A stretch of 64,000 nucleotides of DNA from Streptomyces graminofaciens (GTDB lineage Bacteria > Actinomycetota > Actinomycetes > Streptomycetales > Streptomycetaceae). Position 1 is the first letter of the stretch. The number at the start of each line of letters is the position of its first letter. The notes under the pieces are model-generated. The model worked only from the letters and a program-made list of their open reading frames with translations, was not told the origin of the DNA and searched no databases. The stretch is taken from the NCBI RefSeq assembly GCF_030294945.1, contig NZ_AP018448.1, positions 3,162,001 to 3,226,000 on the forward strand, in the 5' to 3' direction. Both the position numbers and the translations under genes were made by a program. Shown in pieces: positions 8,721 to 59,549 of this stretch.

Positions 8721-8963
8721 CGCCCCCGCCGCCCCCGCCGCCCCTTCACCCCCGACTGCTGCGCTTGAGAGCTCGGGTGGGTTGGGTTCGTCTGCGGCTG
8801 CGGGGTCGTCGGGGTTGCTCGCGCAGTTCCATGCGGCCGTGCTTTCAGGGGCGCGGGGAAGTGTGCGACAAGCCCCCACCGACCCGCAGCCGACACACAT
8901 GCCCAGGGGGCCTGGGGGCGCAGCCCTCAGGGATGGGACGGGTAGGGGCGGCGGGGGCGAGAA
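8721..8963. repeat. Dispersed intergenic palindromic repeat, copy A
   Basis: Copy A of an element also present near 48.9 and 55.0 kb. It has the block GAGAGCTCGGGTGG, the core AGGGGCGCGGGGAA, the segment AGCCGACACACATGCC, and a tail at 8931-8960 containing GGGATGGGACGGGTAGGGG. A reverse complement of the tail's GGGGCGGCGGGGGCG lies at 8721-8745, so the whole element is a long imperfect inverted repeat. There is no coding potential. It follows the ATP-grasp gene and may act as a terminator. Confidence 0.75.
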
Positions 8964-26532: not shown

Positions 26533-26550
26533 GCGGCAGCGAACCTTGAC

Positions 26551-26600
26551 GAGCGCGGGGAACTGCGCGACCAGCCACGACGGTCCCGCAGTTCCCCACA
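26551..26600. terminator. Convergent terminator built from a partial intergenic repeat
   Basis: Perfect 11-base arms GGGGAACTGCG (26557-26567) and CGCAGTTCCCC (26587-26597) form a hairpin between the ends of the PHP gene and the MaoC gene. The sequence GCGCGGGGAACTGCGCGACCA is a fragment of the dispersed element seen near 8.8, 49.0 and 55.1 kb. This supports a terminator role for that family. Confidence 0.65.
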
Positions 26601-48870: not shown

Positions 48871-49137
48871 GGCCTGGCCCTCTTCGACCCCGACGCGCAT
48901 GAGAGCTCGGATGATGGGGTGGGTCGGCGGGGGCGGGATCGTCGTGGTTGCTCGCGCAGTTCCCCGCGCCCCTGAAAAGCGCGGGGCGCAGCCCCGGCTT
49001 CCAGGGGCGCGGGGAACTGCGCGACCAGCCACAAACAACCCGCACGAGCCCACTCCCCCCACCCCTTACCCCGCAGCCGACCGGGGTCGAAGGGGCAGCG
49101 CCCCTGGAGATGGGACGGGTAGGGGCGGCGGGGGCGG
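48871..49137. repeat. Dispersed intergenic palindromic repeat, copy B
   Basis: This copy fills most of the 340 bases after gnd. Its core is a perfect inverted repeat with 21-base arms at 48954-48974 and 49002-49022 (arms begin GCGCAGTTCCCC and CAGGGGCGCGGG) around a smaller GGGGC/GCCCC stem. Outer matches CTTCGACCCCG (48883-48893) and CGGGGTCGAAG (49082-49092) are also inverted. The tail GATGGGACGGGTAGGGG ends at 49137. It is probably the terminator of the pentose phosphate operon. The rest of the gap holds only the leader of the next gene. Confidence 0.85.
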
Positions 49138-50652: not shown

Positions 50653-53529
50653 ATGGCCGAGGCCGGGCAGCACGACGAGCGGTTCGAGCGGTACGACGGT
50701 GGCAGCCCGGAGGCTGAGCGGCTCGTCTTCGAGCGGTTGGCACGGGTGCTCATGGAGGTTCAGGTCCGCAATCGGCGGGCCGGTGGCGGTGGGATCGTCC
50801 GGGCGTTCCACGCCAAGGCGCCGGTTGCCGTGGAGAACGCGCGGCTGCGCTTCCACGACGATCTGCCCGCGGCCCTGCGGGTCGGCTTCGCGCAGCCCGG
50901 CGCGGACTATCCGGCGGTCGTGCGGCTGTCCAACGCGAGCGGCATCCGGCAGGGCGACGGCTCCCCCGATCTGCGGGGCGTGGCCGTGCGCGTGCAGGTG
51001 TCGGAGGGTGTGAGCCACGACCTGCTGGCCACCAGTTTCCCGGTGTCGCACGCGCGCGACGCGCGGGAGTTCGTGGCGTTCGCCAAGGCCATGGCGGGAG
51101 CGCGCAGCCCCGTGCAGAAGGCGTTCGCGCTGTTCGTGAAGCTGCCGCTGTCGGTGGGGCTCCGTACGGCCGACCGGATGCGACGCAATGTGCAAGCGGC
51201 CACCCGGCACACCGTCGACTCCCTCGCCAACGAGACGTACTGGAGCCGCGGGGCGATGCTGTGGGGCGAGGCCGGGCCGGTGCGGTACCTGCTGCGGCCC
51301 GCGCCCGGTACGCCCTCCGCGCCGGCGCCCGATCGGCGGGACCCCGACTTTCTGCACCGGGAGTTCGCCCGTCGGCTCGGTCAGGCGGACGTGGCGTTCG
51401 ATCTGTGTGTGCAGCGGTACGTGGACGAGCGGCGCACTCCGGTCGAGGACGCGTCGGTGGAGTGGAAGGACGCGGTGGCTCCGGCGGTGCCGATCGCTCG
51501 GCTCACCATCCCCGCGCAGGAGCTGGACAGTGCCGAGGCGCGGGCGACGGCACGGCGGATCGAGGATCTGACGTTCAACCCCTGGTACACCACCGACGAA
51601 TTCCGGCCACTGGGCAATATCAACCGGGCCCGGAAGGCCGGCTATCAGGCGAGCGGCGCCCATCGGCTCGGGCGGCGGTTCGTGAGCGAGGAACCGCTGC
51701 GCAACCGGGTGCTCGGGCGTCCCGTGGGTGCCGCCTTCGAGCTGCTGAACCGGGTCGTGCCGTGGCACCGGCTGCCGCTGTCCCTGAGCCTGCTGAACCT
51801 GGTGTTCCTGCGGAAGGTGCTCCGACGGCTGAACCTGATCGACTCCGAGCTGCGTGAGGCACCGCCCAAGGCCCAGCCCGCGCCGGAGCCGATCCCGGAA
51901 CGGCTGCGCACGGAGCGGTCGTACGACGGGACGTACAACGATCTGTCGGAGCCGAGGATGGGCTCGGTCGGTGCCACGTTCGGCCGGAATCTGAAGCCGG
52001 ACTACCGGCCGGACCTCTTCGACACGCCGAACCCGGTGACGGTCAGCCGGGAGCTGCTGTACCGCGAGAGCTTCGTGCCCGCGACCTCGCTGAACGTGCT
52101 GGCGGCGGCTTGGATCCAGTTCCAGGTGCACGACTGGGTGAACCACCGGCGCTACAAGCCCGGTGAGCGCAGTGTGGAGGTGCCGCTGCCGCCCGGGCAC
52201 GCCGGTGGCTGGCAGAACACGCCGGGCGGCCCGGCCGAGCACGTGATGCGGTTCGCGGAGAACGAGGCCGTCGAGCAGCCGGGGCAACCGCCGCTGTTGT
52301 TCGCCAACTCGGCCTCGCACTGGTGGGACGGCTCCGAGGTGTACGGCGCCGACGAGCAGACCGCGCGGTTCCTGCGCGAGCCGAACGGCGGGGCGAAACT
52401 CCGGCTGGAGGAAGGCCACTTGCCGCTGACCGGCAACGGCGTTCCGCTCACCGGCTTCAACGAGAGCTGGTGGATGGGGCTCAGCTCGCTGCACACGCTG
52501 TTCGCCCGCGAGCACAACGCGGTGTGCGACGCGCTGCGGGCCGAGTATCCGACGATGAGCGAGGAGAAGATCTACCACACGGCCCGGCTGGTGGTCTCCG
52601 CGCTGATCGCGAAGATCCACACCGTGGAGTGGACTCCGGCGATCCTCGCCACCGAGGCGATCGACGTCGCCCTGCACACCAACTGGGAGGGCCCGCCGAA
52701 GAACTGGCTCAACCAGCTGGGCCTGTGGCTGTTCGAGGCGCACTCGCTGACCGGCATCCCGAAGACGCTGCCGGACCACCACGCGGCGCCGTACTCCCTC
52801 ACCGAGGACTTCACCACCGTCTACCGGCTGCATCCGCTGATCCCGGACGACTACGAGCTGCGCGACCACCGGTTCGGGCACCGGCTGGAGACGGTCGGGT
52901 TCATGGACATCCAGGGCGGCGCCGCCGAGTCACAGATCCGCAAGACGGGCCTCGCCAACGCGCTCTACTCGTTCGGCATCGCCCACCCGGGCGCGATCAC
53001 CCTGCACAACTTCCCGCGCGCGCTGCAACGCTTCGAGCGGGACGGCGAGATCATCGACCTGTCCGTCGTGGACCTGGTCCGGACCCGGCGGCGGGGCGTG
53101 CCGCGCTACAACGACTTCCTCGCCGGGCTGCACAAGCCGCGCATCCGCTCCTTCGAGGACCTGACGCGGAACGCCGAGACCCTGGCCCGCCTCAAGGACG
53201 TGTACCGCGACGTCGACGAGATCGACACCGTGGTCGGTCTGTTCGCGGAGAACCCGCCGGAGGGCTTCGGCTTCAGCGACACCGCGTTCCGCATCTTCAT
53301 CCTGATGGCCAGCCGACGGCTACAGAGCGACCGATTCCTGACGGTCGACTACCGGCCCGAGGTCTACACCCCGCTCGGCATCGACTGGGTGGAGAAGAGC
53401 GGGATGAACTCCGTGCTTCTGCGCCACTGCCCGGATCTGGCGCCGCTGCTGCCGCGTGACGCGAGCGCGTTCGCGCCATGGCGGACGGTACGGCCGACAG
53501 CCAATGGCGACGGCAGCGGTTCTCAATGA
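50653..53529 (+). CDS. Catalase-like domain fused to a cyclooxygenase / alpha-dioxygenase-like heme peroxidase
   Basis: A 958-residue protein with two heme-binding folds. Residues 40-345 resemble catalase-related proteins: His53 in RAFHAKAP, Arg91, the segment DLRGVAVRVQV, and a proximal pair Arg327-x3-Tyr331 in RARKAGY. The position of the essential distal Asn of true catalases appears to be Ser128 (ATSFPVSHARD). Residues 420-950 match animal-type heme peroxidases of the fatty-acid dioxygenase branch: distal His493 in QFQVHDWVNH, and Tyr724 three residues before proximal His727 in VYRLHPLIPD, the spacing of the radical Tyr and heme His in cyclooxygenases. It may oxygenate a fatty acid and convert the hydroperoxide. 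No signal peptide is seen. GAAGGGA precedes the ATG. Confidence 0.88.
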   Translation: MAEAGQHDERFERYDGGSPEAERLVFERLARVLMEVQVRNRRAGGGGIVRAFHAKAPVAVENARLRFHDDLPAALRVGFAQPGADYPAVVRLSNASGIRQGDGSPDLRGVAVRVQVSEGVSHDLLATSFPVSHARDAREFVAFAKAMAGARSPVQKAFALFVKLPLSVGLRTADRMRRNVQAATRHTVDSLANETYWSRGAMLWGEAGPVRYLLRPAPGTPSAPAPDRRDPDFLHREFARRLGQADVAFDLCVQRYVDERRTPVEDASVEWKDAVAPAVPIARLTIPAQELDSAEARATARRIEDLTFNPWYTTDEFRPLGNINRARKAGYQASGAHRLGRRFVSEEPLRNRVLGRPVGAAFELLNRVVPWHRLPLSLSLLNLVFLRKVLRRLNLIDSELREAPPKAQPAPEPIPERLRTERSYDGTYNDLSEPRMGSVGATFGRNLKPDYRPDLFDTPNPVTVSRELLYRESFVPATSLNVLAAAWIQFQVHDWVNHRRYKPGERSVEVPLPPGHAGGWQNTPGGPAEHVMRFAENEAVEQPGQPPLLFANSASHWWDGSEVYGADEQTARFLREPNGGAKLRLEEGHLPLTGNGVPLTGFNESWWMGLSSLHTLFAREHNAVCDALRAEYPTMSEEKIYHTARLVVSALIAKIHTVEWTPAILATEAIDVALHTNWEGPPKNWLNQLGLWLFEAHSLTGIPKTLPDHHAAPYSLTEDFTTVYRLHPLIPDDYELRDHRFGHRLETVGFMDIQGGAAESQIRKTGLANALYSFGIAHPGAITLHNFPRALQRFERDGEIIDLSVVDLVRTRRRGVPRYNDFLAGLHKPRIRSFEDLTRNAETLARLKDVYRDVDEIDTVVGLFAENPPEGFGFSDTAFRIFILMASRRLQSDRFLTVDYRPEVYTPLGIDWVEKSGMNSVLLRHCPDLAPLLPRDASAFAPWRTVRPTANGDGSGSQ

Positions 53530-53572
53530 CCGTGAACTGACAGCGAACTGAACGACGTACGGGGGATCGCAC

Positions 53573-54979
53573 ATGACGACCATCGACGACGAGCCGTCGG
53601 AGGTGACCGGCCCCTCCGGTCACCCCGGGCTGACGGACCTGTTCCGGCGACCGCTGCTGCAGACCGTGTGGCGGCGGCGTACGCACCGCGTGAGCCGGGG
53701 CGCCAAGGTGCCCGCGGGCTCCATGACCTACACCTCCGGCAATGAACCACGGCCTCTGTCGGAGCTGGAGGAGGCGATGCTGATCGCCATCACCGGCTCC
53801 ACGGGGCTGACCATGCCCGACCGACCCTTCGAGGACCCGGAGAACGGCACGCCCATCATGTCCAAGCCGAACCTCACCATGACGGGACGTACGGCGGGCA
53901 GTCCGGACAACGCGCAGGGCACGCACTTCTTCCTCATCAACGACACCGGCACGTACTTCCTGCGGAAGCTGGAGCCCGCGCCGCAGGAGCCGTTCGACGC
54001 CGAGACGCTCATCGCGCGGGCGCGGCGGGCCAAGGTGAAGGTCCTGGACCACCGGCTCGACGTGGCGCCGGGGAAACGGGACTTCCCGGCGTACCTCGAC
54101 TCGAACCGGTTCCTGTCCAACCTGCCCGGGACCACCGTGCTGTTCCCGGTGGTCGACCTCTCCCACCAGTACGTGAACGCGCTGATGTATCTGCTCACCC
54201 AGCCGGACGGGGCCCGGCCGACCCTGGTGGACGACCGGAACTTCTACCGTCCGGCCGGGGTGAAGAAGTGGGTGAGGAACGGCTTTCTCAACAAGGACCT
54301 GAAGCTGCCGCTGGGGGCGCTGGGGCCGATGCGGACGCAGATCGAAGCGGATCTGCTTCTCCAGAACCTGATGCTCACCGCCGAGGCGATGGGGCTGGGT
54401 GCGTGGATCCACGCCGCGATCAATCCGCAGATCGCGCTCGGCGACCCCAAGTTCTCCCGTGCGTACGGCAGGATGCTCGGTTTCACCTTCGTCACTCCGC
54501 GCTGGCAGCCGGCGGACATCTGGCGCTGGCACATTCCGCTGCCGAAGTACACGAATGTGCGCTCGCATCCGGTCGGGCTGCGTGCGCCCGACGGTGAGGT
54601 GCTGATCGCGGCCGCGTGTCCGCCCTCGTACGGGTCGATGTCGGACGCCGTGGACGCGATCATCCGGGAGAAGTTCGGGGCGGGGGGTGTGTACGGGGAC
54701 AAGGACGTCTTCTCGCGGATCTACAGAGAGGACTACGGGCAGCGGTATCTCGCCGAGGCGAGTGAGTACGAGGAGCGGGTGATCGACTGTGCGCGGGATG
54801 TGTGCGAGTACGTGCTTCGTACGCATCGGCGTTTTCCGGCGCACACGGATGCGATCCATGTTCCCGGGGTCTGGCTTCAGGTGCATCACGTCGAGAAGGA
54901 GTACTACGACCGGTTCTTCGTGAACGGGTTGACGGAGGCGCATCGCAGGCACGACGAGGTGTGGGACGGCAGGGCCTAG
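53573..54979 (+). CDS. Nitroreductase-like protein paired with the heme fusion
   Basis: A 468-residue protein of uncertain family. NEPRPLSELEEAMLIAITGSTG near residues 56-77 (two pieces: NEPRPLSELEE and AMLIAITGSTG) and LLLQNLMLTAEAMGLGAWI near 263-281 resemble the FMN-binding helices of nitroreductases such as SagB-type oxidases. The C-terminal 120 residues match nothing I know. The gene starts 43 bases after the heme fusion gene and surely shares its transcript. It may reduce or oxidise the oxygenated product. No membrane segment or signal peptide is seen. Confidence 0.6.
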   Translation: MTTIDDEPSEVTGPSGHPGLTDLFRRPLLQTVWRRRTHRVSRGAKVPAGSMTYTSGNEPRPLSELEEAMLIAITGSTGLTMPDRPFEDPENGTPIMSKPNLTMTGRTAGSPDNAQGTHFFLINDTGTYFLRKLEPAPQEPFDAETLIARARRAKVKVLDHRLDVAPGKRDFPAYLDSNRFLSNLPGTTVLFPVVDLSHQYVNALMYLLTQPDGARPTLVDDRNFYRPAGVKKWVRNGFLNKDLKLPLGALGPMRTQIEADLLLQNLMLTAEAMGLGAWIHAAINPQIALGDPKFSRAYGRMLGFTFVTPRWQPADIWRWHIPLPKYTNVRSHPVGLRAPDGEVLIAAACPPSYGSMSDAVDAIIREKFGAGGVYGDKDVFSRIYREDYGQRYLAEASEYEERVIDCARDVCEYVLRTHRRFPAHTDAIHVPGVWLQVHHVEKEYYDRFFVNGLTEAHRRHDEVWDGRA

Positions 54980-55000: not shown

Positions 55001-55217
55001 CTGCGAGCTCGGGGGTACCGGGTGCGTTGGCGGGTGCGGGATCGTCGTGGTTGCGCGCGCTGTGCCCCGCGCCCCTGAAAAGCGCGGGGCACAGCCCCGG
55101 CTCTCAGGGGCGCGGGGAACTGCGCGACAAGCCCCCACTCATCCACAGCCGACACACATGCCGGGGGTCTGGGGGCGCAGCCCCCAGGGATGGGACGGGT
55201 AGGGGCGGCGGGGGCGA
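55001..55217. repeat. Dispersed intergenic palindromic repeat, copy C
   Basis: The copy occupies most of the 300 bases after the nitroreductase-like gene. It shows GAGCTCGGGGG, a core inverted repeat CCCCGCGCCCCTGA / TCAGGGGCGCGGGG around GCGCGGGGCACAGCCCCGGC, the AGCCGACACACATGCC block, a hairpin CTGGGGGCGCAGCCCCCAG and the tail GGATGGGACGGGTAGGGG ending near 55217. It matches copies A and B closely and may terminate the heme operon. Confidence 0.83.
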
Positions 55218-56764: not shown

Positions 56765-58558
56765 TCATCTGCCCGGGCGTTGGACGTGCTGGGCGGCGAG
56801 GCGTACGGGGGCGTTCTGGGCGCCGTAGCCCCGGTAGTCGGCGTCGCGCTGGACCAGTTCGAAGAAGACGCGGCCGATGGTCTCCGTGTAGCAGTGGCGG
56901 AACTCGCCGTCGGCGTCGCGGTCGTAGAGGATGCCGAGGTCGCGGTACGTCTCCAGCTCGGCCTCGGTGAACTCGTACCGGGCGGCCAGGTCGTCGTAGT
57001 AGTTCGCGGGTACCGCGAGCAGTCGGCCGCCAGCGGCGCGGAAGGCGCGGGCGGCGGCCACCACGTCGTCCGTGGCGAGCGCGATGTGCTGGGCGCGCGC
57101 GGTGTCGTCGGTCGGGGCGGGGCCGACGCTGAGGGCGATGCGGACACTGCCGTCGGCGTTCGCGACCGGTCGGCTGCGGAACAGGCCGTAGGGGTCGGCG
57201 ACGTCGACGCTCTCGCGGGCGTCCAGGCCGAGCACGGTGCGGTGGAAGAGGGCAGCCTCGTCGAACTGGTGCCAGGGCTGGGTGAGGGCTAGATGGTCGA
57301 CGCGGTGGACGTGCCGCGCGGGTTGCCCGGGCGACGGGACCGGGTGGAAGTCGGTGGTCCAGCTCGGGAGTTCGGGGCGGTCCGTCGCGCAGAAGAAGAG
57401 TTCCGTGCCGTCGGGCGCGGCCACTGCGTCGAGCGGCGCGTCCTCGGCGGCGCGGCGGCGGGGCAGCACCGGGGCGAGGAGCGACTCGGCGCGACGCGCG
57501 GCGCCGTCGGGGTCCGGTGACTCCAGGCCGATCGCGGCGAGCTGGGTGCCGTCCCGGCGCGCGGCCGGGCCGGTGTTGACCAGGATCCGCGCCTCGCCCT
57601 GCTGCCACAGGTCGACCGGCTTGCTGCGGTGCCGTGCGGTGCGGGCGAAGCCGAGGGCGCCGAGGAGCGCCGAGACGGGCTCGGCGTCGGGCGTGACCAG
57701 CTCCGCGAAGGCGACCTGCGTGGGCACGACGGGGGCCGGGAGCGCGGCGAGCCCGGCCGACTCCTGGAGCATCAACAGCGAACGGTGGGCGTCGACTGCG
57801 GTGGGCCCGGCCTCGGCCTGCCGGAAGACGTCGTTGAAGACCTCCAGGGAGAGGGGACCTCGGTAACCGGCGGCGATGACGTGCCGCAGCAGGCCCGTGA
57901 CGTCGAGGCCGCCCTGACCGGGGAAGCAGCGGTAGTGGCGGCTCCACTGGAGTACGTCCATCGCCATCAGCGGGGCGTCGGCCAGCTGGAGGAAGAAGAT
58001 CTTCTCGCCGGGGATGTCGGCGATGCCCTTGGGATCGGAACCACGGGCCAGGATGTGGAAGCTGTCGAGGCAGGTGCCGAGCGCGGGATGGTCGGCGGCC
58101 TCGACGATGCGCCAGGCGTGGTCGTACGTGCTGACGTGCCGCCCCCAGGCCAGCGCCTCGTACGCGACCTTGATGCCGAACTCCTGCGCCAGATCGGCCA
58201 GTTGGCGCAGATGGTACGCGGCGAGCGCGTCGTCGTCCTCGGCGAGCGGATGGACGCTGGAGCAGACGAGCACGGTGTCGGTGCCGAGGCGGCGCATCAG
58301 CTCGAACTTGTGCCGGGCTCGGCGCAGATTGCGGGCGAACTCCTCGTCCGGGACGGCCTCGATGTCCCGCATCGGCTGGTAGAGATCGATGCTCAGGCCC
58401 AGGTCGGCGCAGCGGGCGCGGATGTCCTCGGGGGTGAGGGGGCTGGCGAGCAGATCGTTCTCGAAGATCTCGACCCCGTCGAAGCCGGCCCGGGCGGCCG
58501 CCGTGAGCTTCTCGGTGAGGGATCCACTGAGGGAGACGGTGGCGATGGACGTGCGCAT
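56765..58558 (-). CDS. Two-domain 3-dehydroshikimate dehydratase (QuiC-like, TIM barrel plus HPPD-like)
   Basis: A 597-residue fusion. Residues 1-275 form a sugar-isomerase/AP-endonuclease-2 TIM barrel (GFDGVEIFENDL, VCSSVHPL, LGTCLDSFHILARG, FFLQLADAP, SLEVFND). Residues 290-597 form a vicinal-oxygen-chelate domain like 4-hydroxyphenylpyruvate dioxygenase, with metal ligands in HRVDHLAL, QHIALATDD and RVFFELVQR. Enzymes of this layout dehydrate 3-dehydroshikimate to protocatechuate; the role of the second domain is unclear. It is transcribed with the shikimate dehydrogenase gene upstream, supporting quinate/shikimate catabolism. Confidence 0.88.
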   Translation of the reverse strand: MRTSIATVSLSGSLTEKLTAAARAGFDGVEIFENDLLASPLTPEDIRARCADLGLSIDLYQPMRDIEAVPDEEFARNLRRARHKFELMRRLGTDTVLVCSSVHPLAEDDDALAAYHLRQLADLAQEFGIKVAYEALAWGRHVSTYDHAWRIVEAADHPALGTCLDSFHILARGSDPKGIADIPGEKIFFLQLADAPLMAMDVLQWSRHYRCFPGQGGLDVTGLLRHVIAAGYRGPLSLEVFNDVFRQAEAGPTAVDAHRSLLMLQESAGLAALPAPVVPTQVAFAELVTPDAEPVSALLGALGFARTARHRSKPVDLWQQGEARILVNTGPAARRDGTQLAAIGLESPDPDGAARRAESLLAPVLPRRRAAEDAPLDAVAAPDGTELFFCATDRPELPSWTTDFHPVPSPGQPARHVHRVDHLALTQPWHQFDEAALFHRTVLGLDARESVDVADPYGLFRSRPVANADGSVRIALSVGPAPTDDTARAQHIALATDDVVAAARAFRAAGGRLLAVPANYYDDLAARYEFTEAELETYRDLGILYDRDADGEFRHCYTETIGRVFFELVQRDADYRGYGAQNAPVRLAAQHVQRPGR

Positions 58559-58599
58559 GGGGGTGCTCCTTCAACGCTTCGGGTTTCCGGCAGTAGGCC

Positions 58600-58658
58600 T
58601 CAAGGGGCGCGGGGAACGGCGCGACAAGCCACGGACAACCCGCGGCCGACACACTGGG
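58600..58658. repeat. Partial dispersed intergenic repeat
   Basis: CAAGGGGCGCGGGGAACGGCGCGACAAGCCACGG (read in parts: GGGGCGCGGGGAAC, GCGCGACAAGCC, CGGCCGACACA) matches the centre of copies A-C. It lies between the shikimate dehydrogenase and dehydratase genes, which are on the same strand, so it does not fully block read-through if the pair is one operon. Confidence 0.6.
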
Positions 58659-58673
58659 CGGCCCGTACGGCGC

Positions 58674-59549
58674 CTAGTTACGGACACCCACGACACCGGC
58701 CAACTCGGCAATATCGGCGAGCATGGCGGCAGCGTCCGGCTCACGCCCCGTGAACAGCCGAAACGCGTCCACCGCCTGGAACACCGCCATCCCACCCCCG
58801 TCCAGCACGGCGCAGCCGACCGCCCGAGCGGTCCGCAGCAGCTCCGTCTCCAACGGCCGGTACACCACCTCGGCGACCCACAGCCCGGGCCGCAGCAACT
58901 CCGCGCCGAAGGGCAGCCCGGGGTGCGCGGCCATCCCGGTCGGCGTCGCATGGACGACACCGTCGGCCTCGGCGAGCAGCGCGGGCAGCATGTCGAGGGT
59001 CGCGGCGGCGGCGCGGCCCACCCCGAAGTGCCGGTTGAGGGCGACGGCGAGGTCGGCGGCGCGGTCGGGCATCGCGTCGACGACGGTGACGTGCCCCGCG
59101 CCGAGGGTGAGCGTGGCGTGGGCGACGGCGGCGCCCGCGCCTCCGGCGCCCACCTGCACCACCTTCTCCAGCGGGGCGTCGGGCAGCCCGCGTGCGAAGG
59201 ACGCGGCGAAGCCGGTGACGTCCGTGTTGTGGCCGACGGCGCGGCCGTCATCGAAGACGACGGTGTTGACCGCGCCGAGCGCCTCGGCCTGCGGGGAGAG
59301 CTCATCGAGGTGTTCGATGACGAGCTGCTTGCACGGGTGTGTGATGTTGAGCCCGTCGAAGCCGAGGTCGCGGGCGGCGCGCAGCAGGTCACCGACCGCC
59401 TCCGGCCGGCCGCCGAGCACGTCGATGTCGATGAGCCGGTACAGATAGCGCAGGCCCTGGCGGTCGGCCTCCCGCTCGTGCAGCGCCGGGCTGAGCGAGG
59501 GGCCGATGCCCGCGCCGATCAGTCCGACGAGATACGTGTCCTTGGCCAC
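58674..59549 (-). CDS. Quinate/shikimate dehydrogenase
   Basis: A 291-residue NAD(P)-dependent enzyme. The substrate-binding SLSPALHE is near residue 18, the catalytic lysine in NITHPCK near 75, GAVNTVVFDDGRAVGHNTDVTGF near 95-117 and the cofactor loop GAGGAGAAV near 135. The second half is complete. In this cluster it should oxidise shikimate or quinate for catabolism; the acidic residue after strand two (VVDAMPD) favours NAD. A 26-base operator lies 22 bases before its start. Confidence 0.92.
   Translation of the reverse strand: MAKDTYLVGLIGAGIGPSLSPALHEREADRQGLRYLYRLIDIDVLGGRPEAVGDLLRAARDLGFDGLNITHPCKQLVIEHLDELSPQAEALGAVNTVVFDDGRAVGHNTDVTGFAASFARGLPDAPLEKVVQVGAGGAGAAVAHATLTLGAGHVTVVDAMPDRAADLAVALNRHFGVGRAAAATLDMLPALLAEADGVVHATPTGMAAHPGLPFGAELLRPGLWVAEVVYRPLETELLRTARAVGCAVLDGGGMAVFQAVDAFRLFTGREPDAAAMLADIAELAGVVGVRN

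Follow-up and report, generated by a model that had tools for sequence, protein, structure and literature searches.

What would a bacterium make with a protein that joins, in one chain, a catalase-like heme domain and a heme domain of the kind that oxygenates fatty acids? The question is raised by a gene in a stretch of 64,000 nucleotides from Streptomyces graminofaciens (contig NZ_AP018448.1, positions 3,162,001 to 3,226,000; here, the window), whose genome is a single contig of 11.6 Mb. A first-pass annotation, made from the sequence alone, had taken the product of this gene, P0001, for a fusion of catalase-like and cyclooxygenase-like domains and proposed that, with a nitroreductase-like partner encoded just downstream (P0002), it formed a candidate oxylipin system. 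Sequence comparison and structure modelling confirm P0001 as one chain with two predicted heme-type domains, the first catalase-related and the second an alpha-dioxygenase (alpha-DOX). We lean towards a reading in which O2 would be added to the alpha carbon of a fatty acid at the second heme and the resulting 2-hydroperoxide would likely be converted at the first. Work on alpha-oxidation by alpha-DOX has dealt mainly with plants and a small number of cyanobacteria; this chemistry, if true, would give bacterial oxylipins a concrete route and suggest that bacteria widely possess such a pathway of lipid oxidation.

One chain with two predicted heme domains

Pfam matches An_peroxidase to residues 422-929 of P0001 (E 1.6e-97) and Catalase (PF00199) to residues 51-147 (E 1.5e-5), the latter at 24.7 bits and so under its cut-off of 25; PF00199 is assigned in the database to many relatives. 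In a fold search with the AlphaFold2 model (mean predicted local distance difference test (pLDDT) 91.1, predicted template-modelling score (pTM) 0.89), both domains matched solved structures. The joining of a catalase-type N-terminal domain to a peroxidase domain, as first annotated, is thus borne out by families and folds alike. A heme pocket missing from one domain and a Tyr724 missing from homologues had been named beforehand as possible refutations; both predicted domains match folds of heme proteins, and the tyrosine is kept throughout.

Conservation was followed in two alignments, one of 184 sequences (P0001, 63 of the 65 locus proteins, L045 and L048 being left out for their short open reading frames, and 120 database proteins) and a wider one, set A3, of 90 relatives selected from the results of three sequence searches. 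His493, Tyr724 and His727 each occur in 184/184 and 90/90, Arg327 and Tyr331 each in 184/184 and 89/90, and His53 in 183/184 (with one gap) and 89/90; in A3, His656 and Thr661 are each found in 89/90 and Arg889 in 90/90. All seven residues singled out by the first-pass annotation (these six heme-site residues and Ser128) stand where it had placed them, and all but Ser128 are near-invariant. Position 128 holds 118 S, 57 N, 6 G and 3 D among the 184 sequences and 74 N and 16 S in A3, and because it varies in this way within the family, Ser128 is no hallmark of altered catalase chemistry, as had been suggested.

The closest solved structures to the C-terminal domain, by sequence as by fold, are fatty-acid alpha-dioxygenases. 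The domain carries the equivalents of the radical Tyr with the proximal His three residues on, of the distal His and of the carboxylate-binding His, Arg and Thr, and of 13 substrate-channel positions 11 hold the same residue as in fatty-acid alpha-DOX. On sequence and model, then, the second domain is an alpha-DOX with residues predicted to bring C2 of the substrate to the radical Tyr, and the label cyclooxygenase-like gives way, since the domain is nearer to alpha-DOX than to cyclooxygenase (COX) by sequence, fold and residues.

The N-terminal domain has the catalase core fold, a distal His and the R-x3-Y motif of catalase-related proteins, and departs from true monofunctional catalases in its Ser128 instead of the distal Asn and its PF00199 score. 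A Thr beside the distal His distinguishes the catalase-related group of allene oxide synthases (AOS) and hydroperoxide lyases from true catalases, which have Val. Among the 90 sequences of A3 the residue preceding the distal His is F in 74, L in 12, Q in 2, S in 1 and V in 1, and Thr in none, whereas the coral enzyme (cAOS) has Thr66-His67, its T66 being called identical to the catalase residue in PMC5617202. The first-pass annotation had foreseen a rearrangement of the allene-oxide type. Allene oxide formation needs a double bond next to the hydroperoxide, and the alpha-hydroperoxide of a saturated chain has none; for this reason, and because the cAOS Thr is replaced (by Phe or Leu in 86/90), such a rearrangement is unsupported and we reject allene-oxide chemistry. 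The features of the locus are collected in Table 1.

Table 1. Coordinates in the window of the fusion gene, its predicted functional residues and the two genes that follow it (gene coordinates of P0001 and P0002 run from ATG to stop).
Feature	Position	Strand	Basis
Catalase/alpha-DOX fusion protein P0001, 958 aa	50653..53529	+	ORF (open reading frame), Pfam, structure model
N-terminal catalase-related heme domain, residues ~12-345	50686..51687	+	Pfam, fold match
His53, predicted distal heme His, after Phe52 (not Thr)	50809..50811	+	alignments
Ser128 at the catalase distal-Asn position; N/S/G/D in relatives	51034..51036	+	alignments
Arg327-x3-Tyr331, predicted proximal heme ligand motif	51631..51645	+	alignments
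C-terminal alpha-dioxygenase domain, residues ~351-947	51703..53493	+	Pfam, fold match
His493, equivalent of rice alpha-DOX distal His157	52129..52131	+	alignment to rice alpha-DOX
His656 and Thr661, equivalents of rice His311/Thr316 (carboxylate binding, alpha-carbon placing)	52618..52635	+	alignment; roles from PMC8720084
Tyr724-x2-His727, equivalents of rice radical Tyr379 and proximal His382	52822..52833	+	alignment; role from PMC8720084
Arg889, equivalent of rice Arg559 (carboxylate binding)	53317..53319	+	alignment; role from PMC8720084
Partner P0002, 468 aa, putative nitroreductase-superfamily flavoprotein	53573..54979	+	weak family matches; co-occurrence
Pentapeptide-repeat protein P0003	55279..56745	+	Pfam PF13576; frequent neighbour of the fusion

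Distribution and rearranged forms

The fusion is found in Actinomycetota, Alphaproteobacteria, Cyanobacteriota and others, under database names that are mostly 'peroxidase family protein' or 'catalase'. The nearest named relatives among the matches listed are Streptomyces proteins at about 89% identity, and the full-length named relatives, from 65 loci, belong to Streptomyces, Streptosporangium, Actinomadura, Microtetraspora, Salipiger, Bauldia, Alloyangia and Candidatus Obscuribacterales. A search from the Obscuribacterales protein returned, among its best 120 rows, proteins of Scytonema, Leptolyngbya, Anabaena, Verrucomicrobia, Thermomicrobiales, Vicinamibacteria, Hellea, Ruegeria and Nocardioides, all with An_peroxidase, most also with Catalase, and a few of them partial. 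Plasmids of root-nodule bacteria carry the fusion too, and one or more of these plasmids were typed as conjugative.

Two genome surveys, which scored the two best candidates per genome for P0001 and up to four or five for P0002, give a measure of its frequency. Among 295 genomes of the genus, 76 have a P0001 match and 36 a full-length fusion, meaning one match that spans about residue 10 to at least residue 949; the 36 leave out long variants in pieces (G469, G557, G572), fragments (G505, G586, G598), stand-alone alpha-DOX and catalase-only matches. Among 396 genomes of the phylum, 20 have a match and three a full-length fusion, all three from the window's own genus. Within its genome P0001 is the sole An_peroxidase match, with no second copy of the fusion. 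One locus (L100) holds a remnant in which fusion codons 1-234 run up to partner-gene codons 429-465, which looks like a deletion through both genes.

The same two parts recur in other arrangements. L073 has a catalase-like gene 15 bp downstream of a stand-alone alpha-DOX gene. In L074 both parts form a single protein of 970 aa in reverse order, and in L097, L098 and L099 the stand-alone alpha-DOX gene is preceded by a catalase-like gene on its own strand. In quick trees with a midpoint (hence unsure) root, built with 25 of 90 fusion rows and, for the dioxygenase, without three long variants, the five catalases fall outside the fusion catalases (Shimodaira-Hasegawa-like approximate likelihood-ratio support 99) in two long-branched groups, and their alpha-DOX partners nest among stand-alone alpha-DOX. 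Judged from these sequences, the pairing of alpha-DOX with a catalase-like protein most likely arose on more than one occasion and in both orders, and we take this as the strongest evidence that the two share a reaction path. L073 and L074 retain the distal His in both parts.

The partner gene

P0002 follows P0001 on the same strand after a gap of 43 bp, and the two therefore likely form an operon. It is present in 47 of the 65 fusion loci, in 38 on the same strand and at most 243 bp after the fusion and in nine on the opposite strand; the 18 genomes without an adjacent copy had no P0002 match anywhere, in a search where two positive controls were matched. In the genus survey it occurs in 22 of 36 fusion genomes and in none of the 259 others (Fisher 4.4e-24, a value inflated because the genomes are related), and all 22 copies are linked to the fusion, 17 within 258 bp and five within 2.5 kb. 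The linkage nevertheless persists despite changed order and orientation, and in Alphaproteobacteria at 62-65% identity. The survey of co-occurrence that the first-pass annotation had proposed thus supports a link between the adjacent genes. A distant relative in G680 (32%) was not counted. In the phylum survey, 17 of 19 P0002-matching genomes have distant relatives alone, and P0001 matches none of the 17. Four loci (L084, L085, L086 and L087, in genomes G172, G215, G098 and G066) hold a distant P0002-like family at about 31-36% identity, and these genomes have no fusion match in the phylum survey.

The family to which P0002 may belong is suggested by faint similarities. Against the nitroreductase family PF00881 it scores 15.8 bits, under a cut-off of 23.5; 19 of 26 family members match weakly (best E 0.0036), as does one of three distant relatives (18.7 bits). 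In a Protein Data Bank (PDB) search with profile A5 of the family, four of the five best rows were NfrA1, two NADPH-flavin oxidoreductases and an NADPH nitroreductase, aligned over the same helix at weak E values of 0.14-0.53. A search of the PDB with profile A1 returned no nitroreductase and only two Ras-like rows, and one with P0002 alone only antibody rows; hhalign of the family against four nitroreductases of its own genome gave a probability of 0.6%, with two control pairs at 0.1 and 0.2%; and a fold search with the structure model (pLDDT 48) gave no match at E < 0.001. The nitroreductase superfamily is thus the best lead for P0002 on sequence, the first-pass label being favoured by the PF00881 and A5 matches and weakened by the sub-threshold score and the searches that returned no such enzyme.

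Phospholipases and a thiamine diphosphate enzyme

A gene for a thiamine diphosphate (ThDP) enzyme is present in 16 of the 65 fusion loci, always together with P0002 (Fisher 0.003). All three TPP_enzyme domains were found in each of five proteins scanned, and the entry ranked first in the PDB search is BbmA, for which, as for CsmA, the literature searches gave nothing fitting; a profile search at E 1e-100, too strict a threshold, gave no match.

A patatin-like phospholipase gene adjoins the fusion at L036 (where it is cut by the locus end), L048, L053, L060 and L063. Among the plasmid loci L104-L107 it is present at L105 and L106, and two of the split pairs, L097 and L099, have it as a neighbour. 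The GGGIR, VSGG and DGG motifs are kept in all eight complete proteins; Pfam Patatin scores exceed the cut-off of 27.7 for L105 (40.5), L106 (32.2) and L048 (30.6) and lie under it for L097 (20.8) and L063 (20.3). Since the eight genomes searched have few patatin matches, at least 1-3 each (a lower bound, as the listings for G434 and G519 omit the patatin-like genes beside L097 and L099), a chance neighbourhood is unlikely, a judgement from these counts rather than a computed probability. In L040 and L041 a Tle1-like phospholipase gene takes the place of patatin, and in L105 and L106 phospholipase, ThDP enzyme, fusion and P0002 follow one another on one strand. On a conjugative Rhizobium plasmid (L104) a gene for a RoxA-like cytochrome c and then one for a 195-aa protein stand between the fusion and P0002, and in Streptosporangium nondiastaticum a LodA-like lysine epsilon-oxidase gene lies beside the partner gene (L029, 12598-15606).

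A proposed pathway and its alternatives

A fatty-acid substrate is suggested by the alpha-DOX residues and the phospholipase neighbours. In relatives with a linked patatin-like enzyme, this would free the fatty acid; none was seen beside the window's copy. From the arrangement of Tyr724, of His493 and His727, and of His656, Thr661 and Arg889, we predict that peroxide would activate the alpha-DOX heme and turn Tyr724 into a radical, which would take the alpha hydrogen, O2 then adding to give the 2-hydroperoxy acid. The fusion, and the other pairings of the same two parts, suggest that the catalase domain would remove this hydroperoxide, on our best guess by heterolysis to compound I and the 2-hydroxy acid and two-electron oxidation of the latter to the 2-oxo acid; decarboxylative cleavage to an aldehyde would be a near alternative. 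A 2-oxo acid or shortened aldehyde is preferred as product because ThDP enzymes act on both, and the linked ThDP enzyme might decarboxylate or ligate it, while P0002 might perform a redox step on the product. The logic of oxygenating a fatty acid and then acting on the hydroperoxide, as first annotated, thus finds support in analogy and linkage.

Several observations weigh on the other side. Ten loci (L070-L072, L075-L077, L079-L082) carry stand-alone alpha-DOX genes with no catalase-like match in the fetched flanks, some of these flanks ending early, so the catalase would be dispensable in some lineages. The distal His is changed in both domains of the long variants L095, L096 and L102 (Arg/Pro) and in both proteins of the split pairs L097-L099 (Asn/Arg), all of which may be inactive or altered, and this makes the split pairs and their phospholipase weaker evidence on the chemistry. 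The partner gene is missing from 14 of the 36 fusion genomes of the genus, the window's locus has neither phospholipase nor ThDP gene, and the ThDP relatives in its own genome reach at most 33% identity. As the catalase domain also lacks the Thr-His pair of cAOS, its action on fatty-acid hydroperoxides would rest on analogy. The long variants, with reading frames of 1231-1247 aa, have FRAK in place of FHAK in the catalase domain, and in the alpha-DOX domain a Pro at the distal-His position and a deletion, the radical Tyr being retained. The joint change in both domains, in long variants and split pairs, which we considered as proof of coupling, proves little, because four of the ten stand-alone alpha-DOX also lack that His.

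A different role for the catalase domain, that of a guard limiting H2O2 and hydroperoxide so that the alpha-DOX heme is primed and not destroyed, while the 2-hydroperoxide leaves and decays to the aldehyde by itself, seems to us rather improbable, though by no means negligible. It would fit the retained catalase fold with its distal His, Arg and proximal Tyr, as also the peroxide activation and self-inactivation of alpha-DOX and COX. Fatty aldehydes, moreover, are reported products of alpha-oxidation by alpha-DOX (PMC8720084). Yet P0001 has Ser for the catalase Asn and a Phe before its distal His, and a free catalase would do equally well, with no need for linkage in both orders with different groups of catalase. 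Still less probable is that the enzyme would act on some other carboxylic acid than free fatty acids, for example a polyketide or an aryl acid, within a specialised pathway where the ThDP enzyme would be a carboligase. The BbmA row (its reaction not being given there) and the patchy distribution in the genus would agree with it; against it stand the channel residues, which largely match those of fatty-acid enzymes, and the phospholipases, of two families, that some loci have as neighbours.

Patatin-like phospholipases are known effectors of defence systems, and phospholipase and dioxygenase together could damage the cell membrane as a stress or phage-defence module. We consider this very improbable and reject a defence system, as PADLOC matched none of seven proteins scanned and nine neighbouring window proteins scanned included no recognisable defence gene; a phage origin is likewise rejected, with PHROGs matching none of three proteins. 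Returning to conversion of the 2-hydroperoxide at the catalase heme, a larger and speculative picture, which we ourselves hold doubtful, would make the system a bacterial counterpart of the phospholipase-cyclooxygenase cascade: patatin would free the acid, the fusion would yield the 2-oxo acid, and the ThDP enzyme and flavoprotein would produce a long-chain acyloin or shortened aldehyde as signal or weapon, the window holding a reduced two-gene form and root-nodule plasmids and some actinomycetes the full four-gene form.

Relation to known systems

Plant and cyanobacterial alpha-DOX (4kvj, 4hhr; CalDOX, LepDOX) share with P0001 the fold, radical Tyr, two heme His, carboxylate-binding His/Thr/Arg and most channel residues, but no catalase domain is mentioned for those described in the literature consulted, whereas P0001 carries one ahead of its alpha-DOX; alpha-DOX is found in five bacterial phyla, including Actinobacteria and Cyanobacteria, in a study that nowhere uses the word 'catalase' in its main text (PMC8720084). 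The 33-kDa catalase-related protein of Mycobacterium avium subsp. paratuberculosis has peroxidase activity. It shares its fold with the first domain over 287 of 301 residues (3e4w, 3e4y), and its distal-site Leu-His resembles the Phe-His of P0001, but it is a stand-alone chain of 320 residues with 26% identity to that domain.

Further articles describe comparable pairings. Coral fusions of AOS or hydroperoxide lyase with lipoxygenase have the same layout, an N-terminal catalase-related domain and a C-terminal fatty-acid dioxygenase (PMC5617202), so that the analogy drawn at the outset holds for architecture; their dioxygenase, however, is a non-heme lipoxygenase acting at carbon 8 of arachidonic acid, against the C2 predicted for P0001. 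In Nostoc punctiforme a 10S-dioxygenase (10S-DOX) and a catalase-related hydroperoxide lyase likewise unite a bacterial heme dioxygenase of the COX superfamily with a catalase-related partner, but as two separate genes, acting at the 10S position of linoleate and, by product, not alpha-DOX (PMC9579011, PMC13049297). Fungal fusions of a dioxygenase with cytochrome P450 (linoleate diol synthases) are similarly diheme and join a COX-superfamily dioxygenase to a hydroperoxide-converting heme domain, which is however a P450 and C-terminal (PMC13049297). These pairings being known, the novel part is the catalase/alpha-DOX fusion, of which the literature searched, mainly titles and abstract beginnings with most subscription papers outside its scope, gave no description; the accessible part of a superfamily review that places plant alpha-DOX names no catalase fusion (PMC4420034). 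If the proposed chemistry is true, a further pairing of a catalase-like heme with a fatty-acid dioxygenase would stand beside those with lipoxygenase and 10S-DOX, and P0001 would be a candidate for use as a biocatalyst that makes chain-shortened aldehydes or 2-oxo acids with a single protein.

Surroundings in the window

The ATG of P0001 is shortly preceded by a purine-rich stretch, agggaac. Beyond P0002 lies P0003, its C-terminal part hydrophobic as judged by eye; a pentapeptide-repeat gene adjoins the fusion in 23 of 65 loci, including some without P0002, and a connection to the fusion system is uncertain. Further on, at 56765-59549 on the minus strand, are a gene for a QuiC-like 3-dehydroshikimate dehydratase (a TIM barrel with an HPPD-like part, its NCBIfam score under the cut-off) and a gene resembling shikimate dehydrogenase. 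An element with inverted copies of GCAGTTCCCCGCGCCCCT is seen at 48956-49020, 55059-55123, 58603-58620, 8847-8864 and 26549-26566; the sequence has seven matches with at most two mismatches, against 0.03 expected. Four of the matches form two inverted pairs, 47 bp apart, and one of these pairs lies between P0002 and the next gene.

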